Assembly: GCF_007747655.1 (NCBI RefSeq)
Contig: NZ_CP036274.1
Span: forward strand, 2,852,001 to 2,916,000
Source: Anatilimnocola aggregata
GTDB lineage: Bacteria > Planctomycetota > Planctomycetia > Pirellulales > Pirellulaceae
Direction: 5' to 3'
DNA: 64,000 bases
In this document: positions 47,971-62,653 of the stretch, piece by piece
Layout: each line of letters opens with the position of its first letter
Numbering within the stretch: the stretch's first letter is position 1
Notes under the pieces: model-generated
Database searches by the model: none
The model's input: the letters and a program-made list of their open reading frames with translations, nothing else
What the model was told of the DNA's origin: nothing
Position numbers and translations under genes: made by a program

Positions 47971-50376
47971 ATGAATCATCGCACCGAACAGCCCTACATC
48001 ATGTGGTTCGCCGATATCACCATCGGCGACATTCCGATCGTCGGCGGCAAGAACGCGTCACTGGGGGAGATGGTCCGCGAACTCACGAGCAAGGGAGTGA
48101 AAGTGCCCGATGGATTCGCCGTCACGGCCGAAGCCTATCGCCATTTCATCCGCGAAGCCCGGATTGATGAACGGATTCGCGCGACGCTCTTCGACCTCGA
48201 CACGCAAGACACCGCTAACCTGAGCGAGCGCGGGCACGCCGTGCGTCAGGCCATTCTCAGCGCGACACTGCCGCAGGACCTGCAGGACCAGATCGCCGAG
48301 GCGTATCGCCGCTTACAGGGGAATACCAATGTGCCGCTGGATGTGGCCGTTCGCTCTTCGGCCACCGCGGAAGACCTCCCCGATGCTAGCTTCGCCGGGC
48401 AGCAGGAGACGTATCTCAATGTGCAGGGGATCACGGCGCTCTTGGAGACGTGCAAGCGCTGTTTTGCTTCGCTCTTCACGGATCGCGCCATCAGCTATCG
48501 CGTGGACAAAGGTTTCGACCATTTTAAGATCGCGCTCAGCATCGGCGTGCAACGGATGGTCCGGTCCGACCTCGCCTGCTCCGGCGTGATGTTCACCATT
48601 GATACGGAGTCAGGGTTCCGCGACGCCGTCCTCATCAGTTCGGCTTACGGCCTGGGTGAGAATGTGGTGCAAGGCTCGGTCACTCCCGACGAGTTCATCG
48701 TCTTCAAGCCGACGTTGAAGACCGGCCACCGGCCCATCCTGCAAAAGGTTGTCGGCAGCAAGGAGTTTGCGCTGGTGTACGACGTGGGTGGCGGAAAGAT
48801 GGTCAAGAATGTTCCGGTGCCACCCGCAGATCGAGCGCGATTGTCTCTGACCGACGACGAAGTGCTCGAACTCGCGCGCTGGGGATGCATCGTCGAAGAC
48901 CACTATTCCGCGAAACGAGGCCAGCCGGCGCCAATGGACTTGGAGTGGGCCAAGGACGGTCGCACCGGCGAGTTGTTCATCGTGCAAGCGCGGCCTGAAA
49001 CGGTGCAGTCGCAAAAGAATCCTGACGTGCTGGAGTCCTATCAATTGGGTCAGCGCGGCAAAGTGCTGATCACGGGACGCAGCGTCGGCGAGAAAGTAGC
49101 CACGGGAAGAGTGCGGGTCATCAAGAGCGCACAGTTCATCGGTCAGTTTCAGGAAGGAGAAGTCCTCGTCACCGACAAGACTGACCCCGACTGGCAGCCG
49201 ATCATGAAGAAGGCGGCCGCCATCATCACCAACCGAGGGGGCCGCACTTGCCACGCGGCGATTGTCAGCCGCGAATTGGGCGTGCCGGCGATTGTCGGCA
49301 CGGATCATGGCACTAATGCGCTCAAAGACGGCCAACTGGTGACCGTGAGCTGCGCCGAAGGGGACACGGGCTTCGTCTACGAGGGTGAGTTGCCTTTCGA
49401 AGTGAAGCGCACCAGCTTGAAGACACTCGGCCATCCGCGCACGAAGGTCATGATGAACCTGGCTAATCCCGAAGAAGCATTTGCGCTTTCCTTCATCCCC
49501 AACGAAGGCGTCGGACTGGCGCGAATGGAGTTCATCGTCACGACCTATATCAAGATTCACCCGCTCGCTCTGGTGAACTTCGAGCAACTCGAGGACCTGG
49601 CCGCCAAAGCTGAGATCGAGCGACTCACGACAGGGTACACCGACAAGCCACAATTCTTTGTGGATAAGCTGGCACAGGGCGTCGCGATGCTCGCCGCAGC
49701 GTTCTATCCCAAGGACGTCATCCTGCGATTAAGCGACTTCAAAACGAACGAGTATGCGAATCTCATCGGCGGCAAAGCTTACGAACCGGTCGAAGAAAAC
49801 CCGATGCTGGGCTTTCGGGGGGCGAGTCGCTACTACCATCCGCGCTATCAGGCCGGGTTCGCGTTGGAATGTCGCGCTGCGAAGAAAGTGCGAGACGAGA
49901 TGGGGCTCACCAATCTCAAGCTGATGATTCCCTTCTGTCGCACCGTGGAGGAAGGCCGTCGCGTGCAAGCCGAAATGGCCAAACATGGCCTGCGAAGAGG
50001 AGAGAACGACCTCGAACTCTATGTGATGTGTGAAATCCCCAGCAATGTCATCCTTGCCGATGAGTTCGCGGACATTTTTGATGGCTTCAGCATTGGCTCG
50101 AACGATCTGACGCAACTTATTCTGGGCGTGGACCGCGATAGTGATATTGTTGCGCCCATCTTCGACGAGCGCAATGCCGCGGTGAAAAAGATGATCGCCC
50201 AAGTCATCGCGACGTGCCGCGCACGGGGTCGAAAGATTGGCATCTGCGGACAAGCGCCGAGCGACTATCCCGAGTTCGCACAGTTCCTGGTGGAGCAAGG
50301 CATCAACAGCATCTCGCTTAACCCGGACACCGTCCTTAAAACTACACTGGCAATCCTAGAAAAAGAGAGCTCCTAG
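47971..50376 (+). CDS. ppsA: Phosphoenolpyruvate synthase (pyruvate, water dikinase)
   Basis: An 801-residue protein with the full PpsA plan: an N-terminal ATP-grasp domain (GGKNASLGEMVRELTSKG at about 26-43; RSSATAEDLPDASFAGQQET), a central phosphohistidine domain with the swivelling His in GGRTCHAAIVSRELGVPAIV, and a PEP/pyruvate TIM barrel with MIPFCRTVEEG, SIGSNDLTQLILGVDRDS and GICGQAPSDYPEFAQFLVEQ. It converts pyruvate, ATP and water to PEP, AMP and phosphate for gluconeogenesis in the cytoplasm. It lies 161 bp upstream of the hydrogenase operon on the same strand; no strong terminator is visible between, so partial co-expression is possible. Confidence 0.95.
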   Translation: MNHRTEQPYIMWFADITIGDIPIVGGKNASLGEMVRELTSKGVKVPDGFAVTAEAYRHFIREARIDERIRATLFDLDTQDTANLSERGHAVRQAILSATLPQDLQDQIAEAYRRLQGNTNVPLDVAVRSSATAEDLPDASFAGQQETYLNVQGITALLETCKRCFASLFTDRAISYRVDKGFDHFKIALSIGVQRMVRSDLACSGVMFTIDTESGFRDAVLISSAYGLGENVVQGSVTPDEFIVFKPTLKTGHRPILQKVVGSKEFALVYDVGGGKMVKNVPVPPADRARLSLTDDEVLELARWGCIVEDHYSAKRGQPAPMDLEWAKDGRTGELFIVQARPETVQSQKNPDVLESYQLGQRGKVLITGRSVGEKVATGRVRVIKSAQFIGQFQEGEVLVTDKTDPDWQPIMKKAAAIITNRGGRTCHAAIVSRELGVPAIVGTDHGTNALKDGQLVTVSCAEGDTGFVYEGELPFEVKRTSLKTLGHPRTKVMMNLANPEEAFALSFIPNEGVGLARMEFIVTTYIKIHPLALVNFEQLEDLAAKAEIERLTTGYTDKPQFFVDKLAQGVAMLAAAFYPKDVILRLSDFKTNEYANLIGGKAYEPVEENPMLGFRGASRYYHPRYQAGFALECRAAKKVRDEMGLTNLKLMIPFCRTVEEGRRVQAEMAKHGLRRGENDLELYVMCEIPSNVILADEFADIFDGFSIGSNDLTQLILGVDRDSDIVAPIFDERNAAVKKMIAQVIATCRARGRKIGICGQAPSDYPEFAQFLVEQGINSISLNPDTVLKTTLAILEKESS

Positions 50377-50537: not shown

Positions 50538-51038
50538 ATGGCGCTGGAAGATATTTATAAGAACCTGTCTGAACTGGGGTTGTTTTCGAAACTCCCAGAA
50601 ACGATGTTGCGCCAACTGGCGCAACTGGCCGAGCTACGCTCGTACGGTGCTGGCGGACTGCTGTTCCACGAAGGGGCACACTGCGCTGAGTTGTTTGTGC
50701 TGCAGAGGGGAAAGGTGCAGTTACAAATGCGCGTGCCGGGACGTGGATGCATCCCCATTCTGACCTTAGGGCCCGGGCAGCTTGTCGCCTGGTCCGCTAT
50801 GTTGGGAACGGGTGAGATGACGACTTCGGCAACTGCGTTAGAGGAGACTTCGGCGTTCGCCTTGCCGGTAAGCAAACTCAAGGAGCTATTTGAGCAAGAC
50901 CACGAATTCGGCTATCGGTTTATGGAACAATTGGCAAACGCGTTGGCTCGGCGATTGGTGGCGACCAGGTTGCAATTGTTGGACCTCTGCTCAACTGATG
51001 CGCAACAGATTTCTGTCAAGGAGGAACCGCATGGCTAA
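50538..51038 (+). CDS. Cyclic-nucleotide-binding-domain protein without HTH
   Basis: A 166-residue protein with a Crp/Fnr-type effector domain (beta-roll RSYGAGGLLFHEGAHCAELF; LQRGKVQLQMRVPGRGCIPI; LGPGQLVAWSAML) and a C-terminal helix pair (GYRFMEQLANALARRLVATR), but no helix-turn-helix DNA-binding domain. ATG 50538 follows GAGG with 5-nt spacing. Its 3' end overlaps the start of the Fe-S subunit gene by 8 nt, so it is the first gene of the hydrogenase operon. Small proteins of this kind occur beside group 3b-type hydrogenases. It could sense a nucleotide or redox state and act on the enzyme directly; this is inference. It could also be a truncated former transcription factor. Confidence 0.8.
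   Translation: MALEDIYKNLSELGLFSKLPETMLRQLAQLAELRSYGAGGLLFHEGAHCAELFVLQRGKVQLQMRVPGRGCIPILTLGPGQLVAWSAMLGTGEMTTSATALEETSAFALPVSKLKELFEQDHEFGYRFMEQLANALARRLVATRLQLLDLCSTDAQQISVKEEPHG
51018..51024 (+). promoter_or_regulatory. Shine-Dalgarno site for the hydrogenase beta subunit
   Basis: AAGGAGG, a near-perfect ribosome binding site, sits 6 nt before ATG 51031 and inside the 3' end of the preceding cNMP-domain gene. It decides the start of the beta-subunit gene, whose frame is open further upstream. Confidence 0.75.
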
Positions 51039-52155
51039 GTCTCAAGAAACAGACGATAGGCCGCCGCGGTATCTGGCCAAGGCAGCGTTTAACCGATTGT
51101 TCGCCGTGCTGGCCGAACGGGGATATCAGGTACTCGGTCCAACAATTGACCAGGAAGCGATTGTGTATGCTCCCATCCGGTCGGTAGAGGACTTGCCGCG
51201 CGGCTGGACCGATGAGCAAGCCCCTGGCAAGTATCGCATTGTGCGGCGTGACGACGAACAATGGTTTGGCTTTGTGGTCGGTCCGCACTCCTGGAAGCGT
51301 TATCTTTTTCCACCACTGACGACCGTCAGCAAAGCCGACAAAACGGCTGACGGCTGGCAGTTCAAGTCGGCGGACGATTCACCGCCGAAGCAGGCGTTTC
51401 TCGGTGTGCGGGCCTGCGAAATTGCCGCCATTCAAGTGCAGGACCGCGTATTTTTAAATGGCTCCTTTGTTGATCCTGTGTACCAACGTCAGCGATCACA
51501 ATCGCTCATCATCGCGGTCAACTGTACGCAAGCTGCCCCCACATGCTTTTGCACTTCCATGAATACCGGACCAGAGTGCCAGTCGGGCTACGATATCGCG
51601 CTCACCGAATTGCCTGAGGGGTTCGTCGTCGAAACAGGAACGCCCGAGGGAGCAGCGATCGTCGCTGACTTGGAGACCCGCCCCGTAGAGGCCGATGACC
51701 TGGGTGCGGCAAAAATCGCCCGCCAGCAGGCCGTGGATCAGATTCAGCGGAGCCTGAACACGGACGGTATTCGGAATTTGCTGCTGGGCAATCTCAATCA
51801 TTCACGCTGGGATGATGTCGCCAGCCGTTGCCTTTCCTGCAGCAACTGCACGATGGTCTGTCCAACGTGCTTTTGTGCTTCGGTCGAGGAAGTTGCGGAC
51901 CTTTCCGGCGACCATGTGGAGCGGCAACGAAAATGGGATTCGTGCTTCAGCATCGACTTCAGCTATATGAACGGCGGGGAGGTGCGAGATCAGATTCGGT
52001 CTCGCTATCGGCAATGGCTGACGCATAAGCTCGCCTCGTGGATCGACCAGTTCGGTACTTCCGGTTGCGTCGGCTGTGGACGGTGCATCACGTGGTGTCC
52101 CGTGGGCATTGATCTGACTGAAGAAGTGGCGGCCATCCGCGGAGCAACACAGTGA
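51031..52155 (+). CDS. hydB: Hydrogenase beta subunit, 4Fe-4S (HydB/HyhB-type)
   Basis: A 374-residue iron-sulfur protein of the family of anaerobic sulfite reductase subunit A/sulfhydrogenase beta. The C-terminal half has two 4Fe-4S motifs: [14 protein letters not shown] at about 270-283 and [14 protein letters not shown] at about 345-358. The middle carries further cysteines ([22 protein letters not shown]) typical of the family. Role: electron transfer between the flavin subunit and the hydrogenase small subunit, in the cytoplasm. Start set by the AAGGAGG site. It overlaps the next gene by 4 nt (GTGA), and the gamma, small and large subunit genes follow. Confidence 0.9.
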
Positions 52156-53027
52156 GTGCAGCGCAAACCCGATTCGACTGTGAATCTGCTCCCAACCCCA
52201 ATCCCTGGTTGTCAGAAACGGCGGTCATTCGCGAGATCACTGCCGAAGTGGAGGGTGTCGCCACCTATCACCTGGCGTTTGTTAACGAGGCGCGCGGCGC
52301 AACCTACCGGTTCCAACCCGGGCAATTCAACATGCTGTATTTGCCCGGCGCTGGCGAAGTACCCATCTCCCTGAGCGCCGATCCGGAAAGTGCCGGTACC
52401 TGGGCACACACAGTGCGCGCGGTGGGAAATGTAACGAAGACGCTCGCGCGACTAAAGCTCGGCGATACATTAGGTCTGCGCGGACCGTACGGCAGCGGTT
52501 GGCCTTTAGCGGAATGTGTGGGGCGCGACGTGCTCATCATCGCTGGTGGCCTGGGACTCGCACCGCTTCGGCCAGCGATTTACCACTTGCTGCGGCAGCG
52601 TGGACAGTTTGGTCGAGTCTGGCTGCTCTATGGTTCACGTTCTCCAGAACTGCTCTTATACGAGCGGGAATATCCGGACTGGATTACGAGCGGTATTTCT
52701 GTCGAAGTGACCGTGGACCGTGCTGCTCCGGGTTGGCAGGGCAATGTCGGCGTGGTGACGGTGCTGGTCGAGCAACTCAGTGACTTCGATCCAGCCAAAT
52801 GCGTGGTGCTCTGTTGTGGCCCGGAAGTGATGATGCGGTTCGCGGCGCAGGGTGCATTACGGCGGGGCGTGCCCGCATCGCGAGTTTGGGTCTCGTTGGA
52901 GCGGAACATGCAATGCGCGGTCGGCTTTTGCGGCCACTGCCAACTAGGGCCGGAGTTCGTCTGCAAAGATGGACCCGTGATCCGCTACGATCGAGTCGCG
53001 TCCTGGCTGAAAGTCGAGGGACTGTGA
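52152..53027 (+). CDS. hydG: Hydrogenase gamma subunit, FAD/NAD(P)-binding (HydG/HyhG-type)
   Basis: A 291-residue flavoprotein of the ferredoxin-NADP reductase fold, as in sulfhydrogenase gamma and anaerobic sulfite reductase B. The FAD-binding beta barrel contains [20 protein letters not shown] followed by ISLSADPE; the nucleotide-binding part has [19 protein letters not shown] and [16 protein letters not shown]. The C-terminal part carries a [2Fe-2S] site, [17 protein letters not shown]. It starts with GTG 52152, overlapping the previous stop by 4 nt. It exchanges electrons between NAD(P)H and the hydrogenase. Cofactor preference (NADH or NADPH) cannot be set from sequence alone. Confidence 0.9.
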
Positions 53028-53806
53028 TGAGCGGCAAACCGAAACTCGCGGTCTTTAAGTTTGCGTCCTGCGATGGGTGCCAATTATCGTTGCTGAGCGC
53101 CGAAGACCAGTTGCTGGAACTTGCCGGTAAGGTGGAGATTGTTCACTTCCTTGAAGCGACCAGCCGAATCGCGGACGGTCCCTACGACGTGACGCTGGTG
53201 GAAGGTTCCATCACCACGCCGCATGACGTGGAACGCATCCGGGAGGTGCGGCGGCAGTCGGCGTATCTGGTCACGATCGGCGCTTGCGCGACGGCCGGTG
53301 GCATTCAGTCGCTCAGGAACTGGGCCAACCATCAGGAGTTCTTGCAGGCAGTTTACGCGTCTCCTGAATACATTTCATCGCTGGCTCACTCCACGCCGAT
53401 TGCCGCCCATGTAAAGGTCGATTTTGAGTTGCGTGGTTGTCCGATCAACCAAAACCAACTCGTCGACGTCCTCTCCTCATTGTTGGCGGGTCGGCAGCCG
53501 CGCGTGCCACGACATACCGTTTGTCTCGACTGCAAACTGCGGGGCACGGTGTGCGTGATGGTCGCCCAAGGTCAGCCCTGTTTGGGGCCGGTCACTCATA
53601 CGGGATGTGGCGCCATCTGCCCATCGTTTAATCGCGGCTGCTACGGCTGTTATGGTCCCGCGGCACAGCCCAACCTCATCAGCTTAACGACGGAGTTCTC
53701 GGCGACGGGAGTTCCACGCGAACAAGTGATCCACAGCCTGCGGAGTTTCAATGGCTACTCTGAGGAGTTCCGCCAAGAAAGTGAACGGCTGCAGGATTCA
53801 CCATGA
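53027..53806 (+). CDS. hydD: [NiFe] hydrogenase small subunit
   Basis: A 259-residue small subunit of group 3-type hydrogenases with twelve cysteine ligands for three Fe-S clusters: C15 and C18 (SCDGC), C87 (GAC) and C138 (RGCP) for the proximal [4Fe-4S]; then C166, C169, C176, C185, C194, C198, C205 and C208 for the others. There is no Tat signal, so the enzyme is cytoplasmic. ATG 53027 overlaps the previous stop by 1 nt (TGATG), and the stop overlaps the next start by 4 nt. The next gene is not the large subunit but a CoA-transferase, which is not usual. Confidence 0.93.
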   Translation: MSGKPKLAVFKFASCDGCQLSLLSAEDQLLELAGKVEIVHFLEATSRIADGPYDVTLVEGSITTPHDVERIREVRRQSAYLVTIGACATAGGIQSLRNWANHQEFLQAVYASPEYISSLAHSTPIAAHVKVDFELRGCPINQNQLVDVLSSLLAGRQPRVPRHTVCLDCKLRGTVCVMVAQGQPCLGPVTHTGCGAICPSFNRGCYGCYGPAAQPNLISLTTEFSATGVPREQVIHSLRSFNGYSEEFRQESERLQDSP

Positions 53807-55101
53807 ACCAATACCTCGATCCCGCCGTCACTACGTCGGAAGCAGTCGAACAACTGCAGAGCGGCATGAATATCTTCGTGCATGGCGCGTCAGCGACACC
53901 GACTCCTCTGCTCGAAGCGCTGTGCCGCCGCTGCGATCTTACCGATGTGCGGCTGTATCATATGCATACCGCTGGTCCGGCGCCCTTTGTAGAACCGGCC
54001 TGTCACGGCCGTATCCAGTCGGTGTCATTATTCACCGGCAGCCCGGTTCGGCAAGCCATTCAGGACGGGCAGGCGGACTTCATTCCGGTGTTCTTGTCCG
54101 ATATCCCGGGCTTGTTTCAAAGCGGTCGGATTCGTCTCGATGCGGCGCTGCTGCAGGTTTCGCCGCCAGACAAGCATGGGTTCTGTTCGTTAGGAACATC
54201 GGTGGATGCAGCCCGCGCCGCCGCCGATTGCGCGCCGCTGCTGATCGCCGAAATCAATCGCCAGATGCCGCGCACGCACGGCCACAGTGTCGTGCCGCTA
54301 AAATCATTCGCGGCGTGGACCGCAACGGATCGCCCGCTGCACGAACACCCGCCGATGCCGGAAACACCTGTCGAAGCCGCGATCGGCGAACAGATCGCTC
54401 AGTTGATCAAGGATGGTGCCACGCTGCAAACCGGAATAGGTGCAATTCCCGATGCAGTGCTGAGCCGCTTAGGCAGCAAAAGCGACTTGGGCGTTCATAC
54501 GGAAATGTTCTCTGATCGAATCGTTGATCTGGTTCACGCGGGTGTCATTACGAACCGCTGCAAAAAAATCTATCCAGGGCAGATCGTGACCAGTTTCGTC
54601 ACGGGCACTCGGCGACTGTTTGATTTTGTAGATGACAACCCGCAAGTGGCGTTCTATCCCTGCGACATTACGAACGACACGAACCTGTTGCGCAAGATCG
54701 ACAAACTCGTGGCCGTGAATTCCGCTTTGCAAATTGATCTTACTGGGCAGGTCTGTGCGGACTCGATCGGACATCGCATCTATTCGGGAATTGGCGGTCA
54801 AATGGATTTCATCCGCGGCGCGGCGATGTCGCCGGGTGGGCATGCGATCATCGCACTTCCCTCCACGGCCGTGAGAGGTACAGTGTCGCGGATTGTGGCG
54901 GAACTAGCGCCGGGAGCGGGTGTCGTGACAACCCGTGGACATGTGCAATGGGTCGTCACGGAGTACGGTGCTGTCAATTTGCATGGACTGTCGCTGCGGC
55001 AGCGGGGTGACGCGCTGATCGCGATTGCGCATCCCGACTTTCGTGGCGAGTTGCGGCAGCAACTCAACCAGCTCCGTCACTTTGGAGGGCTCACGCCATG
55101 A
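53803..55101 (+). CDS. Acetyl-CoA hydrolase/4-hydroxybutyrate CoA-transferase family protein
   Basis: A 432-residue family I CoA-transferase. The catalytic glutamate is E234 in LGVHTEMFSD, followed by VDLVHAGVIT; the CoA-binding glycine loop is SGIGGQMDFIRGAAMS at about 328-343; an earlier FLSDIPGLFQSG block fits the family. It transfers CoA between an acyl-CoA and a carboxylic acid (acetate, 4-hydroxybutyrate, butyrate or similar), or acts as hydrolase. The gene overlaps the small subunit stop (53803/53806) and the large subunit start (55098/55101) by 4 nt each, so its translation is coupled to both hydrogenase subunits. I do not know this arrangement from characterised group 3b operons. The substrate is not evident. 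Confidence 0.9.
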   Translation: MNQYLDPAVTTSEAVEQLQSGMNIFVHGASATPTPLLEALCRRCDLTDVRLYHMHTAGPAPFVEPACHGRIQSVSLFTGSPVRQAIQDGQADFIPVFLSDIPGLFQSGRIRLDAALLQVSPPDKHGFCSLGTSVDAARAAADCAPLLIAEINRQMPRTHGHSVVPLKSFAAWTATDRPLHEHPPMPETPVEAAIGEQIAQLIKDGATLQTGIGAIPDAVLSRLGSKSDLGVHTEMFSDRIVDLVHAGVITNRCKKIYPGQIVTSFVTGTRRLFDFVDDNPQVAFYPCDITNDTNLLRKIDKLVAVNSALQIDLTGQVCADSIGHRIYSGIGGQMDFIRGAAMSPGGHAIIALPSTAVRGTVSRIVAELAPGAGVVTTRGHVQWVVTEYGAVNLHGLSLRQRGDALIAIAHPDFRGELRQQLNQLRHFGGLTP

Positions 55102-56405
55102 CGCCTGACCAATCGACTCGGACCATCAAGATCGAAGCACTCACGCGAGTGGAAGGGGAAGGCGGCCTGCAGGTGCGCTTGCGCAACGGTGTGATCGAAG
55201 ATGTGCAATTGCAAATTTACGAGCCACCTCGTTTTTTTGAGGCATTTTTGCGCGGCCGGTCCGTCGAAGAGGTTCCCGACATCACCGCCCGAATTTGCGG
55301 CATCTGCCCCGTGGCCTATCAGATGAGCAGCGTGCATGCGCTGGAATGCGCACTCGGCGTGAGCGTCACGCCGGAGATTCGGCGACTACGGCGGTTGCTG
55401 TATTGTGGCGAGTGGATCGAAAGCCACGCCCTGCACATTTACTTGCTGAATGCCCCCGATTTTCTCGGCTTCGAGAGTGGTCTGGAGATGGCCGAACGCT
55501 TTCCCGATGAGGTAAATCGCGGCTTACGACTCCGGAAGATCGGCAACCAGCTATTGGAAGCTCTCGGCGGCAGGGCCATTCATCCCATCAATGTTGCCGT
55601 GGGGGGCTTTTATCGCTCGCCCTTGCGCGAGGCGCTGCAGCAGTTAATCCCTCAGTTCGAATGGGCGGTCGAGGCGGCCGTAGAAACGACGCGCTGGGTT
55701 GCGGGATTCGAGTTTCCTGACCTTACCTGCAACTACGAGTTGGTTTCACTTACACATCCCGACGAGTACCCGATGAATGAAGGTGTGATCTCGGGATCAT
55801 CGGGCTGGTCGGCGCCGGTCTCCGATTTCGAGACGGAATTTATCGAACGGCAAGTGGCACATTCGACCGCTCTGCATTGTGTTCGCACGGGTGGTACGAG
55901 TTACCTCGTGGGACCGCTCGCACGAATTGCTTTGAACCTGGAACAACTGTCACCGACGGCCCGCCGCCTGGCGCACGAATTGCCGCTGGTTTGGCCGTGT
56001 CTCAATCCCTTCCAGAGTATTGTCGCCCGCGGCCTGGAACTGATTCACGCCTTTGAAGAAGCGCTCTCGATATTGCGAAGCTATCAGCCCGCGCAGCCCA
56101 CGAGAATTCCGTACGAATATCGTCCAGGTGTGGGTTGGTCCGCCACCGAGGCCCCTCGCGGACTCCTTTATCACCGCTATCGCGTGGACGAGGCCGGCCT
56201 CGTGTGTGAAGCCAAGATCGTGCCTCCGACGTCGCAGAATCAGCGGCAAATCGAGTTGGACCTGAGGCAGTGGCTGCCCGACATTATCGCGCAACCAGAC
56301 GAAATCGTCGCTCGCAAGAGCGAGAACCTCGTACGTTGCTACGACCCCTGCATCAGTTGTTCCACGCACTTCCTGCGCGTCGTCATTGAGCGAGGCACGT
56401 CATGA
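55098..56405 (+). CDS. hydA: [NiFe] hydrogenase large subunit (group 3b-like)
   Basis: A 435-residue large subunit with both metal-binding motifs: L1 at 65-74, RICGICPVAY (C67 and C70), and L2 at the C-terminus, DPCISCSTH (C418, C421, H424). The Ni-Fe site would bind these four cysteines. Residues 425-435 after H424 form the short C-terminal extension to be cut off by the dedicated protease encoded next. Early motifs EPPRFFEAFLRGR fit group 3b. In place of the His at the end of L1 in many groups there is Tyr74. The protein is cytoplasmic and has a 4-nt overlap with both neighbours. Group assignment as 3b rests on the subunit set (Fe-S, flavin, small, large), not on phylogeny. Confidence 0.93.
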   Translation: MTPDQSTRTIKIEALTRVEGEGGLQVRLRNGVIEDVQLQIYEPPRFFEAFLRGRSVEEVPDITARICGICPVAYQMSSVHALECALGVSVTPEIRRLRRLLYCGEWIESHALHIYLLNAPDFLGFESGLEMAERFPDEVNRGLRLRKIGNQLLEALGGRAIHPINVAVGGFYRSPLREALQQLIPQFEWAVEAAVETTRWVAGFEFPDLTCNYELVSLTHPDEYPMNEGVISGSSGWSAPVSDFETEFIERQVAHSTALHCVRTGGTSYLVGPLARIALNLEQLSPTARRLAHELPLVWPCLNPFQSIVARGLELIHAFEEALSILRSYQPAQPTRIPYEYRPGVGWSATEAPRGLLYHRYRVDEAGLVCEAKIVPPTSQNQRQIELDLRQWLPDIIAQPDEIVARKSENLVRCYDPCISCSTHFLRVVIERGTS

Positions 56406-56905
56406 CCGACAGTGGACAACGTGCTTCGAAGCCACGCAAGCTCGCCGTGGGCATCGGGTCGCCGCATGGCGACGACCAGATTGGCTGGGCCGTGATGCGA
56501 GAACTTGCGGTTGCGATGCAGGGTGAGCTGCAGGTCAAAACGGCCAGTCAACCTCTTGAACTGCTCGACTGGTTACCGGACTTAGATCAGCTCATCATCT
56601 GCGATGCTTGCCAGGCTGACGGCGCGCCGGGTGACATTTATCGGTGGCAGTGGCCAACGGAATCTCTGGCCACATGCAAGCGCGGCGGCTCGCACGATCT
56701 AACATTGCCGTTCGTGCTCTCACTAGCGGAGCAGTTGGAGAGACTACCGCAGCAAGTCATTGTGTGGGGAATAGAACTTGGCGACACCTCGCCGGGCGCT
56801 CCGCTCAGCAGTGCAGTGCGATCCGCCATCCCCAAGATCGTGAAGCTCATAAGCGATGACCTGCAAATGACGCTTTCCAAGTCGGAGCCGATCAGCCATG
56901 CATGA
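56402..56905 (+). CDS. Hydrogenase maturation endopeptidase (HyaD/HycI family)
   Basis: A 167-residue protein of the hydrogenase-specific protease family: the N-terminal GIGSPHGDDQIGW corresponds to GNxLxxDDGxG with the nickel-binding Asp, followed by LIICDACQADG with another conserved Asp region, and a late His in GGSHDL. It would cleave the large subunit after H424 once Ni is inserted. ATG 56402 overlaps the large subunit stop by 4 nt, and its own stop overlaps hypA by 8 nt. Sequence match between its substrate and the extension FLRVVIERGTS is expected but not checkable here. Confidence 0.88.
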   Translation: MTDSGQRASKPRKLAVGIGSPHGDDQIGWAVMRELAVAMQGELQVKTASQPLELLDWLPDLDQLIICDACQADGAPGDIYRWQWPTESLATCKRGGSHDLTLPFVLSLAEQLERLPQQVIVWGIELGDTSPGAPLSSAVRSAIPKIVKLISDDLQMTLSKSEPISHA

Positions 56906-57269
56906 ATGGTCGTTTGCCAGGAAGCTGCTGCAGCAGGCGACCGGTATCTGCCACGCGAACGGCGCGAGGCACTGCTTGGAAGTGCGGGTCCAGATTGGGC
57001 CGCTGTCGGGGATCGAGGCCACCTTGCTGGAAAGTGCTTTTGAACAACTGGCCAGCGACCACGAACTCGCACCCACACGACTGGTGATCGAGCGAACGCC
57101 GCTCGTGGTACGTTGCCGCGATTGCGCGGCCGAGTCGGAGTTGTCCGATTTCGATTTCTACTGCCGATTGTGCGGTGGTCGTGCTGTGCAAGTGGTGGCG
57201 GGGGACCAATTGCAACTGGTGAGCGTCACCGTGGATGATGCGGCGTTAATGATCAAAGGTACGACATGA
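56898..57269 (+). CDS. hypA: Hydrogenase nickel incorporation protein HypA
   Basis: A 123-residue HypA. It begins MHEW, with the N-terminal His2 that binds nickel, and has the zinc ribbon CRDC...CRLC at about 74-94. It delivers Ni to the large subunit with HypB. Length is normal. Its start overlaps the protease gene and its stop overlaps hypB by 4 nt. It is the first of the six hyp genes, in the order A-B-F-C-D-E. Confidence 0.93.
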   Translation: MHEWSFARKLLQQATGICHANGARHCLEVRVQIGPLSGIEATLLESAFEQLASDHELAPTRLVIERTPLVVRCRDCAAESELSDFDFYCRLCGGRAVQVVAGDQLQLVSVTVDDAALMIKGTT

Positions 57270-57946
57270 GCAAACAAGTGATCGTCGTCAGAAGAGATGT
57301 GCTGGCAGAAGAGCGGGCCGACGCTGCTGCGGAACGGGCCCGACTGGCGGGGCGCGGGACGCTTGCGGTCAACTTGTTGTCGTCTCCCGGAGCAGGGAAA
57401 ACTTCGCTGCTGGAAGCAACCGCGCAATACTTCCAGAGCCGCCGCACGATGGCAGTGCTCGTGGGAGACCTCGAAACAGACCGCGACGCGCAGCGGCTTG
57501 CGCGCTATGTTCCCACCGTGCAACTCACCACGGGCGGAGCCTGCCATTTAGAGTTGCCGCTCGTTAAACGCGGTCTGGTGCAGCTCGGCGACCCGCAGGT
57601 CGATTTTCTGTTCATCGAAAACGTCGGTAACCTAGTATGCCCCGCCTCACACGATTTAGCGGAACATTTGCGAGTGGTTTTGCTCAGCACGACAGAAGGA
57701 GATGACAAGCCAGGCAAGTATCCGAAGATGTTTCGCACGAGTCAGGCAATGGTCATCACGAAGCTCGATTTGCTGCCGCACGTTCCCTTCTCCAGCGAAT
57801 CGGCCGTGCAAGATGCGCAGCGCATTCAACCGAATCTCGATGTCTTCAACGTGTGCGCACTCGATGGCCGCGGCATTGAGGAGTGGTGCCAATATCTAGA
57901 ACAACAACGGGATGCAATGCTGCAGAAGCGAGACCAGCACCCGTGA
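57266..57946 (+). CDS. hypB: Hydrogenase maturation GTPase HypB
   Basis: A 226-residue HypB GTPase with the P-loop SSPGAGKTSLLEA at about 39-51, a metal-binding TTGGACHLELPLVKRGL, and a later FIENVGNLVCPASHDLAEHL (Walker B/switch region). The N-terminal His-rich nickel-storage stretch found in many HypB proteins is absent, so it can deliver but probably not store nickel. It overlaps hypA (4 nt) and the hypF start (GTG 57943, 4 nt). Confidence 0.93.
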   Translation: MSKQVIVVRRDVLAEERADAAAERARLAGRGTLAVNLLSSPGAGKTSLLEATAQYFQSRRTMAVLVGDLETDRDAQRLARYVPTVQLTTGGACHLELPLVKRGLVQLGDPQVDFLFIENVGNLVCPASHDLAEHLRVVLLSTTEGDDKPGKYPKMFRTSQAMVITKLDLLPHVPFSSESAVQDAQRIQPNLDVFNVCALDGRGIEEWCQYLEQQRDAMLQKRDQHP

Positions 57947-60210
57947 CGGATGTATTGCCTAGCGCAGTTCATGTGACGTTGACCGGCCGGGTCCAGGGTC
58001 TGGGTGTAAGACCCGCAATTGCGCGGTGGGCCCGCCAGTTGTCTTTGATGGGTTGGGTGAGCAACACCTGTCGCGGGGTGGAGATCGTCGTGGGGGGCAC
58101 CTCCGATGAAGTTGAACAGTTCATCCGCGAACTTCCCCAACGACTGCCCCGCGCCGCAATCGTAGAAAGCCAGGAGTGCGCGCCGATTGAACCTCCCATG
58201 TGCAAGACATTCGCCATTCGGAGTGAATCAGTTTCAGGCGCGCTAAAAGTACGCGTGCCCCCAGATCTCGCCGCTTGTGAAGACTGTCTTCGCGAAACAC
58301 GAAGCGCTACGGACCGGCGTTCGAGATACCCGTTTGCCAGTTGCACGGCATGTGGTCCTCGGTATTCGATCATCGAGAAAATGCCGTATGAACGCGCTCA
58401 CACAACCATGCGGAACTTCACCCTTTGCCCAATCTGTCAGAGGGAATTCAATTCGCCTGCAGATCGAAGGTATCATGCGGAGACGACCGCTTGTCCGGCT
58501 TGTGGACCGCACTGGTGGTGTTGCGACAACACAGACCGAACGATCGCCACCGGCAGAGACGCGATCCAAGCGGCGGCCGCGACCATTCTTCGCGGCGAGA
58601 TCGTCGCCTTGCAGGGACTCGGCGGGTATCAACTCATTGTCGATGCCACCTCAGAGACAGCCGTCAATCGACTGCGAACTCGGAAACAGCGCAACGGCAA
58701 ACCCTTCGCGGTCATGGTCGCGAGTGTCGAACAGGCCTTGCGCCTCGCGCGGTGCGACCAGACCGAGCGTCAGGCGCTCGCGTCACCTGCGGGGCCAATC
58801 GTCATCTTAGATCAGCAGCAGGGGAACGAACTTGCTCACGGTGTCTCACCCGGACTTGATACGCTGGGGCTGATGCTGCCCACGTCACCTTTGCACGATC
58901 TGCTGCTGATCGCCTGCGGGCGGCCACTCGTCGTGACCAGCGGAAACCGAGAAGGAGATCCGCTAGCGTTCGAGCACCGAGGGGCGCATATCCGCCTAGC
59001 AGCCATTGCCGACCTGTGGCTGGAGCATAACCGCCCCATTCGGCGACCCGTTGACGACAGCGTGGTCCGCGTCATAGCGGGGCGAGTTGCGGTCTTGCGT
59101 TCGGCACGCGGATTTGCGCCACTGCCTTTAGAAGTACATTCGCCGAAGCCGCTCCTGGCGATTGGGGGGCATCACAAGGCTGCCATTGCAATCAGCAATG
59201 GTGCGCAAGGCGTGCTTGGGCCTCATGTCGGCGACTTGGATTCTGCCGCTGAACGTGAGCGCTGGGAGACTCATGTTGCCGATCTGCAGAACCTATTTGG
59301 TTCGTCGCCTGTGGCGCTTACTGGCGACTTGCATCCCGATTATTACTCAAAACGTTGGGCCGCGACGCAGCCGCTTCCTTGCATGCAGGTGCAACATCAT
59401 CATGCGCATGTTGTTGCCGGAATGGTCGAGCATCGCTGGCTGGACCGAGCCGTTTTGGGCGTGGCCTTTGATGGCACTGGACTCGGCGACGATGGAACCA
59501 TTTGGGGCGGCGAGTTTCTCCTGGCCACATCCGCTGAGTTCAAACGCGTTGCCCATGTGTTACCATTCGACCTGCCCGGAGGCGAACGTGCCGTTCGCGA
59601 GCCGTGGCGGGTTGCTGTGTCATTGGCACAGCGCGCTGTCGGCAGTGAACGCGCCTCGAAACTCGCATTTCAGGCCGGATCTCCCCAAGTGCTCCTGCCT
59701 CTGATAGGAAATCCGCGGTTCTCACCCGTCACGACCAGCGCCGGACGCTTGTTTGATGGTATCGCCGCGCTGTTGCTCGGAGTGGAGGTCGCACAATTTG
59801 AGGGACAGGGGCCCATGGTGCTGGAGGCAGTCTGTGATCGCACTGCTGCCGGTTGTTACCCCATGCCTCTTCAGGGGACTAGGCCGTGCGTCCTTGATTG
59901 GCGACCAGCCGTGGTGCAAATTCTGGGCGATCTACAAGCCGCAGTCGCACCGGGTGTGATTGCGATGCGGTTTCATCGTGGTTTAGCGAAGGCCGTGTTG
60001 GCGGTCGCGCGTCGGTATCCGCAAAGCCCGGTTGTCTTAGGTGGCGGCTGTTTTCAGAATCGCATCCTCGTCGAATTGCTCGTCGAAATGTTTGCACAAA
60101 CGGGCCAATTAATCGGCCTACCGGGACTGATCCCGGTGAATGATGGTGGTCTCGCTGCCGGACAATTGGCGATCGCTTCCAGTCAACTTGAAAATCAATA
60201 CAGCAGGTGA
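57943..60210 (+). CDS. hypF: Carbamoyltransferase HypF
   Basis: A 755-residue HypF. In order: acylphosphatase-like domain (GRVQGLGVRP at about 15-24), two zinc fingers (CEDCLRE, CTACGPRYS, CPICQREF, CPACGPHW at about 110-190), a YrdC-like domain (AAAATILRGEIVALQGLGGY) and a Kae1-like domain (VQHHHAHVVAGMVEHRW; GTGLGDDGTIWGGEF). It makes thiocyanate-linked carbamoyl for the CN ligands of the Ni-Fe site. The GTG start at 57943 overlaps the hypB stop by 4 nt. An upstream in-frame start at 57883 is unlikely because it lies within hypB. Confidence 0.93.
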   Translation: MTDVLPSAVHVTLTGRVQGLGVRPAIARWARQLSLMGWVSNTCRGVEIVVGGTSDEVEQFIRELPQRLPRAAIVESQECAPIEPPMCKTFAIRSESVSGALKVRVPPDLAACEDCLRETRSATDRRSRYPFASCTACGPRYSIIEKMPYERAHTTMRNFTLCPICQREFNSPADRRYHAETTACPACGPHWWCCDNTDRTIATGRDAIQAAAATILRGEIVALQGLGGYQLIVDATSETAVNRLRTRKQRNGKPFAVMVASVEQALRLARCDQTERQALASPAGPIVILDQQQGNELAHGVSPGLDTLGLMLPTSPLHDLLLIACGRPLVVTSGNREGDPLAFEHRGAHIRLAAIADLWLEHNRPIRRPVDDSVVRVIAGRVAVLRSARGFAPLPLEVHSPKPLLAIGGHHKAAIAISNGAQGVLGPHVGDLDSAAERERWETHVADLQNLFGSSPVALTGDLHPDYYSKRWAATQPLPCMQVQHHHAHVVAGMVEHRWLDRAVLGVAFDGTGLGDDGTIWGGEFLLATSAEFKRVAHVLPFDLPGGERAVREPWRVAVSLAQRAVGSERASKLAFQAGSPQVLLPLIGNPRFSPVTTSAGRLFDGIAALLLGVEVAQFEGQGPMVLEAVCDRTAAGCYPMPLQGTRPCVLDWRPAVVQILGDLQAAVAPGVIAMRFHRGLAKAVLAVARRYPQSPVVLGGGCFQNRILVELLVEMFAQTGQLIGLPGLIPVNDGGLAAGQLAIASSQLENQYSR

Positions 60211-60213
60211 ATC

Positions 60214-60474
60214 GTGTGCCTCGGCGTTCCAGGGAAAGTAGTGCGCTGGATTGAACGTAGTGGCCCTTTGGCCCGCGCGGATGTCGAGTTCGCAGGAATA
60301 CGCCGCGTTTGCCACCTGGCCTTGGTGCCGGAAGTTGAGGAAGGTCAATTCGTCTTGATTCATGCGGGTATCGGTATCGGCCGGATCGATGAGGCCGAGG
60401 CTCAGCGGTTGATCGTCGACCTGGCGCGGTTGGCGGATGGTGCTGATTGGTCGCGCACTGGAGACCGCACATGA
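60214..60474 (+). CDS. hypC: Hydrogenase maturation chaperone HypC
   Basis: An 86-residue HypC: MCLGVPGKV with Cys2, the residue that carries the Fe(CN)2CO group, followed by a short OB-fold domain (GQFVLIHAGIGIGRIDEAEA). GTG start 60214 is 3 nt after the hypF stop, and its stop overlaps the hypD start by 4 nt. It works with HypD to assemble the iron ligands and pass them to the large subunit. Confidence 0.92.
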   Translation: MCLGVPGKVVRWIERSGPLARADVEFAGIRRVCHLALVPEVEEGQFVLIHAGIGIGRIDEAEAQRLIVDLARLADGADWSRTGDRT

Positions 60475-61571
60475 AGTATGTAGATGAATTTCGAGATCCC
60501 GAAGCCGTCCGACGACTGGTTGAGGCCATTCGTCGCATGGCCACGCGGCGCTGGACGCTGATGGAAGTCTGTGGCGGTCAGACGCACAACTTGTTGCGGT
60601 ACGGGATCGATGAGGCGCTGGAGGGCTGCATCGAACTGATCCACGGCCCCGGGTGTCCTGTCTGTGTGACGCCGGTCGAGACCATTGACGCGGCACAGGA
60701 ATTGTCCCTGCGGCCGAACACGATCTTGGCCAGCTTTGGAGACATGCTTCGCGTGCCAGGCAGTCACGGCACGTTGCTCAGTTCGCGGAGCAAAGGTGGG
60801 CGTGTGGCGGTTGTCTATTCGCCGCTCGACGCTGTGGAAATTGCCCGCGAGCGACCACAGGATCAGATTGTGTTTTTGGCCGTGGGTTTCGAGACCACAG
60901 CGCCTGCCACCGCACTGGCAGTGCAGCAGGCAACTCACTACGGCCTCGACAATTTCAGTCTGCTGGTGGCCCATGTCTGCGTCCTGCCGGCCATGCAGAT
61001 GCTGGCAACCGCGCCGGACCACCGCGCTAAGGCCTTTCTGGCCGCCGGTCACGTTTGCGCAGTCACCGGCTTCGCAGAATATGACGAGTTTGTCCGTCGA
61101 TTTCGCCTTCCCCTGGTGGTGACCGGCTTTGAACCGGTCGATCTGCTGGAAGGCATCCTCGCCTGTGTGAGACAATTGGAGACCGGTGTTGCCAGCGTGG
61201 AAAACTGCTATGCGCGTAGTGTTCGCCGCGAGGGGAACCTGGCAGCCCAGCGCCTGGTCGAGCAGATTTATGAAGTACGAGATACGCCGTGGCGCGGTTT
61301 CGGTGTCATTCCTCGCGGCGGCCTGAAACTCAGGGAGGAGTGGCAGCGATTCGACGCACGGCAGCGATTCTCGGCGACGCCTGAGGTCGCGGCCTGCGCT
61401 ACGGAGTGTCCGGCGGGCGACGTGCTGATCGGTCGAATCAGGCCGACGGAGTGCCCGCACTTTGGGACTCGCTGCACGCCCGACTCGCCGCTCGGAGCAC
61501 CCATGGTGTCTACCGAAGGTCCATGTGCCGCCTACCATCGCTATCGAGTTGCCAGCCACGCGGGGAAGTGA
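60471..61571 (+). CDS. hypD: Hydrogenase maturation protein HypD
   Basis: A 366-residue HypD. The family motifs are visible: EVCGGQTHNLLRYGIDEAL at about 31-49, HGPGCPVCVTP, and the C-terminal cysteine cluster that holds a [4Fe-4S] (ACATECPAGDVLIG, then CPHFGTRCTPDSPLGAPMVS and EGPCAAYHRY). ATG 60471 overlaps the hypC stop by 4 nt. It supplies the platform on which HypC/HypE assemble the CN and CO ligands. Length is normal. Confidence 0.93.
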   Translation: MKYVDEFRDPEAVRRLVEAIRRMATRRWTLMEVCGGQTHNLLRYGIDEALEGCIELIHGPGCPVCVTPVETIDAAQELSLRPNTILASFGDMLRVPGSHGTLLSSRSKGGRVAVVYSPLDAVEIARERPQDQIVFLAVGFETTAPATALAVQQATHYGLDNFSLLVAHVCVLPAMQMLATAPDHRAKAFLAAGHVCAVTGFAEYDEFVRRFRLPLVVTGFEPVDLLEGILACVRQLETGVASVENCYARSVRREGNLAAQRLVEQIYEVRDTPWRGFGVIPRGGLKLREEWQRFDARQRFSATPEVAACATECPAGDVLIGRIRPTECPHFGTRCTPDSPLGAPMVSTEGPCAAYHRYRVASHAGK

Positions 61572-61576
61572 GAACC

Positions 61577-62653
61577 ATGCCTCCAGAATCGGTTTCGCGA
61601 ACAAACAACGAAGGACTTTCCTGCCCCATCGAGTTGAATCGTGATGTGCCGCACGTGACCTTGGCGCACGGCGATGGCGGCCGGCTGACGCGGCAACTCG
61701 TGCGAGAACACATTACCAATCGACTGGCCAATGTTCACTTGCAGTCGCTCGATGATGCTGCGTGTTTGCCGCAACCGGTAGGGCCGCTGGCGGTCACGAC
61801 CGATAGCTTTGTGGTTACGCCGTTGTTTTTCCCCGGCGGCGACATCGGCTCGCTTGCGGTGTACGGAACCGTTAATGACCTGGCTGTCTCGGGAGCGCAC
61901 CCCTGTTGGTTAACGCTCGCGCTCATCCTGGAGGAAGGACTGCCGCTGGCCGTTCTCGATCAAGTGATCGCGAGTGTGGCCAGTGCCGCGCGGCGTTCCG
62001 ACGTGGCGATTGTGGCTGGCGATACGAAGGTTGTTCCACGCGGCGCGGTGGATGGGTTGTTTATCAACACAACCGGAATTGGCGTTTTCCACTCGCCCGT
62101 ACCTGCGGGGCCGAAATCGCTTACACCAGGAGACGAACTGATCATTAGCGGGCCCGTCGGTCAACATGGAATCGCGGTCATGGCCGCCCGCGAACGACTG
62201 AGTTTCGATCCCGCTCCTCACAGCGACTCACTGCCGCTGGTCAAGCCGATTCGAGTGTTGAGAGAACAACTCGGATCGCGCGTCAAAGCCATGCGCGACG
62301 CCACGCGAGGCGGCGTGGCAGCCGTGCTGCACGAATGGGCCGAAGCAGCCCGCGTAACGCTGGCCGTCGAGCAAGCCACGTTTCCCATGCCTGACGAACT
62401 CCGCGGCCTGTCAGAATTGTTGGGCGTCGATCCTCTTTACTTCGCCGGTGAAGGGGTCTTCTTGCTGGCCGTTGAACCGGGTGCCTGCGAGGCAGCCTTA
62501 GCCATCCTGCGCTGTCATCCAGAATCAAAGCTTGCCGCTCGCGTCGGTGAGGTCCAGGCTCAACAACGCTTCCCGGTAACCATCCGACGTGCCCTGGGAA
62601 CGACGCAACCACTGGACGAACCAACCACCGCTTTGCTCCCGCGTATTTGCTGA
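61577..62653 (+). CDS. hypE: Hydrogenase maturation protein HypE
   Basis: A 358-residue HypE of the PurM-like fold: HGDGGRLTRQLVREH at about 33-47, SLDDAACLPQP, VYGTVNDLAVSGAHP, VVAGDTKVVP-like DTKVVPRGAVDG, and the essential C-terminal Pro-Arg-Ile-Cys, whose cysteine is carbamoylated and dehydrated to thiocyanate. ATG 61577 lies 5 nt after hypD. It is the last hyp gene, and no further gene follows in the operon. Confidence 0.93.
   Translation: MPPESVSRTNNEGLSCPIELNRDVPHVTLAHGDGGRLTRQLVREHITNRLANVHLQSLDDAACLPQPVGPLAVTTDSFVVTPLFFPGGDIGSLAVYGTVNDLAVSGAHPCWLTLALILEEGLPLAVLDQVIASVASAARRSDVAIVAGDTKVVPRGAVDGLFINTTGIGVFHSPVPAGPKSLTPGDELIISGPVGQHGIAVMAARERLSFDPAPHSDSLPLVKPIRVLREQLGSRVKAMRDATRGGVAAVLHEWAEAARVTLAVEQATFPMPDELRGLSELLGVDPLYFAGEGVFLLAVEPGACEAALAILRCHPESKLAARVGEVQAQQRFPVTIRRALGTTQPLDEPTTALLPRIC

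Follow-up and report, generated by a model that had tools for sequence, protein, structure and literature searches.

A family I CoA-transferase gene between the small and large subunit genes of a group 3b-like [NiFe] hydrogenase in Anatilimnocola aggregata, and its recurrent linkage to hydrogenase genes

Why should a CoA-transferase gene lie between the small and large subunit genes of a hydrogenase? The question is raised by a stretch of 64,000 nucleotides of the Anatilimnocola aggregata genome (contig NZ_CP036274.1, positions 2,852,001 to 2,916,000; hereafter the window, with coordinates counted from its first letter), in which an intact family I CoA-transferase gene (CoAT, 53803-55101) separates the small (53027-53806) and large (55098-56405) subunit genes of a [NiFe] hydrogenase. 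Direct reading of the frames gave an ATGA overlap with the small subunit gene at 53803-53806 and another with the large subunit gene at 55098-55101. A first-pass annotation, made from the letters and their reading frames, had described a complete gene of this family in this place with such an overlap on either side, and both points were confirmed, the former by the frames and by matches to PF13336 (4.4e-63) and PF02550 (3.8e-19). The genome is a single contig of 9,007,740 bases and holds one CoAT match; since the GC content (0.587) and GC3 (0.647) of CoAT are like those of the neighbouring genes, it is not visibly foreign.

The + strand run comprises the genes for the beta, gamma and small subunits, CoAT, the large subunit, a protease, hypA, hypB, hypF, a probable hypC, hypD and hypE. 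By its four cytosolic subunits, the hydrogenase appears to be a group 3b-like, NAD(P)-linked [NiFe] enzyme: an iron-sulfur beta subunit (51031-52155; Fer4_22 3.3e-33, best NCBIfam models HydB/ShyB, below cut-off), an FAD/NAD(P)-binding gamma subunit (52152-53027; NAD_binding_1 and DHODB_Fe-S_bind, with PRK08345 best and ShyC among the next, below cut-off), the small or delta subunit (Oxidored_q6 7.9e-25; ShyD/HydD below cut-off) and the large or alpha subunit (NiFeSe_Hases 1.1e-21). The translation of the latter contains RICGICP and CISC, which we take to be the cysteine motifs of the NiFe site, and its best match among solved structures in the PDB is Sulfhydrogenase 1 alpha (2.5e-67). The label "group 3b-like" was chosen because the equivalog cut-offs of the narrow NCBIfam Hyd/Shy models were not reached (ShyA 267 of 700 bits, HydA 251 of 880 bits). 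Group 3b hydrogenases are reversible.

CoAT itself is of the butyryl-CoA:acetate / 4-hydroxybutyrate type, with N- and C-terminal AcetylCoA_hydro domains (PF02550, PF13336). The nearest solved structures, 2OAS (1.2e-139), 9VAG, 3EH7, 3D3U and 3GK7 (1.9e-98), were all deposited as 4-hydroxybutyrate CoA-transferase; the names family I and, for 3GK7, AbfT are presumed here to apply. As the score against TIGR03948 (butyryl-CoA:acetate CoA-transferase) was 267.9 bits, below the equivalog cut-off of 674.8, the protein was not filed under that name. The glutamate of HTEMFSD (Glu234) and the GIGGQ loop were present as the first-pass annotation had them, and we take these to be the catalytic residue and the CoA loop, respectively. 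An alignment of 141 CoAT rows, with 129 distinct sequences and with 27 rows that are hydrogenase-linked, showed no variation at Glu234, Gly213, Gly331 or Gln333. Hydrogenase-linked and unlinked CoATs thus have all four checked active-site positions in common, and they differ, partially and for the most part mildly, at 8 positions (three divergent-type loci excluded from this comparison). Because the catalytic residues are kept and there is little difference from unlinked copies, CoAT is probably a commonplace enzyme of acyl-CoA/acid exchange that helps to balance redox under anaerobic conditions. The open frames of many planctomycete CoATs at 45-55% identity (e.g. those of genomes G211, G161 and G115) are about 620-660 residues long and are perhaps fusions to another domain.

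Genome contigs were scanned for relatives of CoAT, and the best 80 loci of at least 574 confirmed relatives were inspected (G numbers stand for genomes, L numbers for loci). Hydrogenase structural genes were on the same stretch in 16 of these 80, against about 0.3 expected from random placement in a rough estimate that ignores relatedness. The order small-CoAT-large was found in L001-L004, the order CoAT-crp-beta-gamma-small in L007-L011, and hox genes beside or near CoAT in L015, L041, L042, L044, L047, L053 and L066; in L015, CoAT and the start of hoxE are 3.5 kb apart and separated by other genes, and the stretch breaks off within hoxU. The hox loci were assigned to group 3d by gene content and order rather than by a curated classifier, under hox names that we presume to hold. 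L044 reads hoxEFUY-CoAT-hoxH, so that in a second hydrogenase group, too, CoAT separates the small subunit gene from the large one. Weak hoxU/hoxF matches (37-40%) beside the CoAT of G236 were not counted as a link, there being no small or large subunit match there.

A 3b-linked CoAT was found in 19 planctomycete genomes, the window included: between the small and large subunit genes in six (the window, L001-L004 and L149, with one extra gene in this place in L001), at the operon head in nine, and divergent or at the end in four. Members of the same CoAT subfamily lie beside or near group 3d-like hox genes in nine further genomes (Opitutaceae, Gemmataceae and kin). The first-pass statement that known group 3b operons are without a CoA-transferase is corrected by these 19 genomes, and the arrangement is not confined to one genome or a single close relative. 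A single-genome oddity was rejected on account of the five other genomes with CoAT between small and large, and these, together with the one-contig assembly, also make an assembly artefact unlikely. The extra gene of L001 (L001:2946-4283), between small and CoAT, looks by eye like a DUF1016-type nuclease.

Whole-genome samples were searched in addition. Among 170 genomes of the order to which the genome of L001 belongs, CoAT (E 1e-150) was found in 20 and the 3b large subunit (1e-100) in 77, with both in 18 (Fisher p 1.4e-5, relatedness ignored), and CoAT lies at the hydrogenase locus in 16 of its 20 genomes. It stands between small and large in G392, G393, G394, G395 and G788, and upstream in G398-G402, G692, G795, G802 and G803; in G769 it is divergent, in the same place as in G373, and in G748 it is on the opposite strand, past the last of the hyp genes, and is followed by a ppsA 70% identical to that of the window. 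As for the others, G687 and G396 have CoAT with no 3b large-subunit match at 1e-100, G810 has both, apart, and in G797 CoAT runs off the contig end. Acetate kinase served as a control in the same order: it is carried by 164 of the 170 genomes. Of the 77 hydrogenase genomes, 54 are represented among the 150 matches listed, none of which comes within 20 kb of the large subunit gene; 20 of these matches share a contig with it, the nearest being 253 kb away. Another 28 3b operons (L112-L140 without L130) had no CoAT between small and large, in stretches too short to include an upstream one.

In a Planctomycetota sample of 392 genomes, CoAT (E 1e-100) was present in 71 and a large-subunit match (1e-20) in 110, with both in 32 (Fisher p 5e-4). 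At a CoAT threshold of 1e-150, 7 genomes remained, 3 of them with a large-subunit match, and in 2 of the 3 the genes were linked. A large-subunit match of 1e-120 or better was present in 54 genomes, of which 14 had CoAT (1e-100) and 4 had it linked. The order to which the genome of L044 belongs had CoAT in 10 of 102 genomes, in 6 of them beside hox genes (L042, L044, L053, L066, L158, L159). For Verrucomicrobiota, 6 of 8 CoAT genomes were without a hydrogenase link in the stretches fetched. In a further one, G563, CoAT is 3.6 kb from a hydrogenase whose small subunit, with NiFe_hyd_SSU_C, led us to class it as membrane-type; this CoAT has a 4-nt overlap with a GNAT acetyltransferase gene, and a PocR/AraC regulator gene is also near (L163:6645-9877).

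Overlaps like those of the window are found in part elsewhere. The 4-nt overlap of small and CoAT recurs in L002, L003, L004 and L149 and is absent in L001, where the extra gene intervenes; CoAT and large are 12 to 223 nt apart in L001-L004, and the L149 matches do not touch, so that both overlaps together were observed nowhere but in the window. Among the nine upstream-type loci, an overlap of CoAT and crp by 1 or 4 nt is possible in seven: 4 nt in L010 and L011, and also in L007, L008 and L151 if the upstream start is used, and 1 nt in L009 and L152, the remaining two having gaps of 5 nt (L150) and 132 nt (L153). Overlapping gene pairs are described as tightly coupled in translation and as often encoding subunits of a complex in the accessible part of PMC10666635, and the relation of gene order to complex assembly is a theme of PMC4742563, likewise by its accessible part.

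The position of CoAT varies by clade, being between the subunits, upstream, divergent, convergent or downstream, with 3b and 3d enzymes, and because of these differences the linkage was probably gained more than once. Two gains are needed if the 3b and 3d links are separate, and gene orders and the CoAT tree suggest up to five: with 3b, the clade of split (CoAT between small and large) and upstream types, the divergent G373, and the divergent G149/G178 (CoAT 50-51% identical to that of the window); with 3d, the Opitutaceae, and the order of L044 together with Gemmataceae. In the CoAT tree (118 rows, 110 after 8 duplicates were dropped), the split-type CoATs form one group (Shimodaira-Hasegawa-like approximate likelihood ratio test 94, not starred; 5 rows, L149 absent). 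L081 and L111, copies of the window, were also dropped elsewhere, and L130, a copy of L141, was dropped from the single-subunit trees. The hydrogenase genes gave a different picture. In the concatenated gamma-small-large tree, the six split operons were together in 6% of bootstraps, and this grouping was rejected by the approximately unbiased (AU) test at p 0.0215, a modest value for a group set by gene order and tested after the single-subunit trees had pointed the same way. This tree holds 41 rows with both small and large, leaving out 5 of the 9 upstream-type loci (L009, L010, L151-L153). Split rows were together in 0% of 200 replicates of the large-subunit tree (4 rows) and in 46% for the small subunit (5 rows).

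Identities point the same way. The window and L001 share 91% of CoAT residues, but 65% for gamma and 69% for each of beta, small and large; at the DNA level, identity within CoAT is 78-90%, falling to 67% in the first bin and 65% in the last, and small and large range over 50-79%. When L001-L004 and L149 are compared with one another, CoAT (89-96% identity) and the hydrogenase subunits (85-97%) have diverged to a similar degree. Since the identity and tree of CoAT are discordant with those of the hydrogenase subunits, CoAT was probably exchanged between operons, or the hydrogenase genes were replaced round it.

What, then, would CoAT do for the hydrogenase? The recurrent linkage argues for a functional tie, and we hold it somewhat more probable than even that CoAT is accessory to a module for anaerobic redox balancing, with a cytosolic, reversible, NAD(P)-linked [NiFe] hydrogenase at its centre. 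Being catalytically intact, CoAT would swap CoA between acids such as acetate, propionate and butyrate. When oxygen or another acceptor is short, the hydrogenase would re-oxidise NAD(P)H, making H2, and CoAT would free acids from their acyl-CoA and hand the CoA to an acid whose thioester can still give ATP, the gene overlaps keeping the two produced together. Separate enzymes of one pathway are favoured over a stable complex, and the module may run either way, as fermentation with H2 release or as H2-driven use of acids. In the draft genomes G802, G401, G795 and G400, CoAT stays with crp-beta-gamma-small (L152, L010, L153 and L009), and the large subunit and protease genes are on other contigs (L174-L177) with no small subunit gene beside; if the assemblies are right, this would connect CoAT with the handling of NAD(P)H and not with maturation. 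As context for the module, ppsA adjoins the operon, and the A. aggregata genome has 1 acetate kinase match, 1 POR_N (PFOR/KFOR-type) match and no match to the PFL family. Genes for a prismane protein, a protoglobin, an ornithine cyclodeaminase-like protein, PPK2 and a universal stress protein follow 3-11 kb past the window end (L170:5452-12680), which may be read as a low-oxygen/nitrosative-stress neighbourhood.

Several counts weigh against this reading. A linked CoAT is lacking in 61 of 77 3b genomes in the order of L001 and, for large-subunit matches at E 1e-120 or better, in 50 of 54 in the phylum sample; of the 32 Planctomycetota genomes with both genes, only 4 have them linked, within 4 kb (G000, G373, G149, G178). 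The order of L044 contributes 4 unlinked genomes of 10 with CoAT (L157, L160, L161, L162), and CoAT occurs in just 8 of 240 Verrucomicrobiota genomes, only that of G430, the search centre, being beside hox genes. A [NiFe] hydrogenase (NiFeSe_Hases, 1e-8) was found in 29 of 50 CoAT genomes and in none of the other 21, in a check that took in every one of the 16 linked loci and 34 of the 64 unlinked ones, mostly from metagenome-assembled genomes, so that some absences may be gaps. Finally, the one acetate kinase match in the A. aggregata genome offers another route to acetate.

The same parts could work in reverse, H2 uptake giving NAD(P)H, CoAT activating acetate or another acid, and phosphoenolpyruvate synthase feeding gluconeogenesis. 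The reversibility of group 3b enzymes and the PFOR/KFOR-type gene would suit this, as would ppsA, which adjoins the operon in the window and CoAT in G748; yet these are the only two genomes with ppsA so placed, among stretches of varying length, and direction is not readable from sequence, so that we regard it as unlikely. Nor do we give much weight to a physical partnership, in which the slot between the catalytic subunits would reflect assembly or substrate hand-over. The slot is occupied in two groups, 3b (window, L001-L004, L149) and 3d (L044), and with the window hydrogenase rejected as a clade with the other five (AU p 0.0215) and the CoATs in one clade (94, not starred), either a CoAT entered it on two occasions or it stayed occupied through exchanges of genes; the association of overlapping pairs with complex subunits (PMC10666635, accessible part) would agree. 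However, the 21 of 28 linked genomes with CoAT elsewhere, sometimes on the opposite strand, the 8 partial and mostly mild residue differences, and the separately located large subunit gene of G802, G401, G795 and G400 all argue against it, and we consider it distinctly improbable. Slightly more doubtful still is the wider proposal that 3b and 3d hydrogenases of Planctomycetota and Verrucomicrobiota repeatedly recruited this CoAT subfamily into a physical assembly, which, if true, would couple H2/NAD(P)H turnover with acyl-CoA/acid exchange at one site.

That the linkage has no functional meaning, a mobile and common CoAT gene having landed in a labile operon, is about as doubtful. It would explain the discordance of CoAT with the hydrogenase (91% against 65-69% between window and L001), the further gene inserted beside CoAT in L001 and the breaking up of some 3b operons, but not the linkage of 16 of 20 CoATs in one order in several arrangements, the overlaps kept and active-site residues unchanged, or the absence of such linkage among the 150 acetate kinase matches listed. 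A role in cofactor synthesis, finally, is very improbable. According to the accessible sections of a 2025 review, it is unresolved where the CO ligand of the [NiFe] site comes from in anoxic conditions, and a CoA transferase is named as a possible maker of formyl-CoA (PMC12134894); the linkage of CoAT to two hydrogenase groups could be seen in this light. Against it stand the 21 of 50 CoAT genomes with no [NiFe] hydrogenase match, the 61 of 77 3b genomes of one order with no linked CoAT, the four drafts that keep CoAT with crp-beta-gamma-small and have large and protease on other contigs, and the genome of A. aggregata with no PFL family match (HypX was not searched for).

The remaining genes of the locus are all on the + strand. 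Downstream of the large subunit gene follow a maturation protease of the hycI type (56402-56905; PF01750, and TIGR00072 with 82.9 bits at a cut-off of 47.5), hypA (56898-57269; PF01155 2.6e-24), hypB (57266-57946; cobW/HypB 6.9e-18), hypF (57883-60210; TIGR00143, 674 bits, cut-off 466), a probable hypC with approximate start (60214-60474, recognised by eye from VCLGVPGKV... in the translation), hypD (60471-61571; PF01924 1.8e-139) and hypE (61577-62653; TIGR02124, 388 bits, cut-off 252). Just upstream of the operon lies ppsA, for phosphoenolpyruvate synthase (47971-50376; TIGR01418, 1202 bits, cut-off 740), and between it and the beta subunit gene is that of a CRP-like protein (50538-51038), which matched only the cyclic-nucleotide-binding domain PF00027 (2.6e-13) and no DNA-binding or helix-turn-helix domain; it is present in many fetched 3b operons and is perhaps a sensor that does not bind DNA. 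A pattern search for FNR-type boxes, allowing 1 mismatch, gave 2 matches in the window against 1.56 expected, neither near the operon. Unlinked CoATs had no dominant neighbour family among 100 of their 116 immediate neighbours (PocR/AraC regulators 7/100, lactonase 5/100, methylmalonyl-CoA mutase 3/100). The unlinked Phycisphaerales CoATs of L045, L054 and L063 adjoin methylmalonyl-CoA mutase genes, a hint of propionate metabolism.

The survival of anoxia by planctomycetes and verrucomicrobia thought to be aerobic is poorly known. A hydrogenase operon that includes a CoA-transferase points to a definite partner enzyme and marks the module across genomes, and through it the exchange of acids and H2 becomes directly testable; it is unusual for the small/large slot to be used, as it is here with two groups of hydrogenase, and this may bear on assembly. 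The first-pass suggestion of an undescribed module is partly upheld, as regards the linkage to two hydrogenase groups and the same-strand overlaps in several relatives, and its chemistry stays a prediction. A CoA-transferase gene in a hydrogenase operon was not found described in the accessible parts of PMC12134894, PMC2864759 and PMC10173188, in a search that mostly excluded subscription journals.

Among known systems, the nearest to the window is the group 3b operon of sulfhydrogenases 1 and 2 (HydBGDA/ShyBCDA), which has beta, gamma, small and large in the same order with hyp genes next, but which lacks the CoAT gene that the window has between small and large. The bidirectional group 3d clusters (HoxEFUYH), although different from the hydrogenase of the window, are a second type with the same CoAT subfamily, and one of them (L044) has the order small-CoAT-large as well. 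To the family I 4-hydroxybutyrate and butyryl-CoA:acetate CoA-transferases (AbfT, 3GK7; 2OAS; TIGR03948) CoAT is similar over nearly its full length, with the glutamate and the GGQ loop alike; it differs from them in falling below the TIGR03948 cut-off and in its place within a hydrogenase operon.

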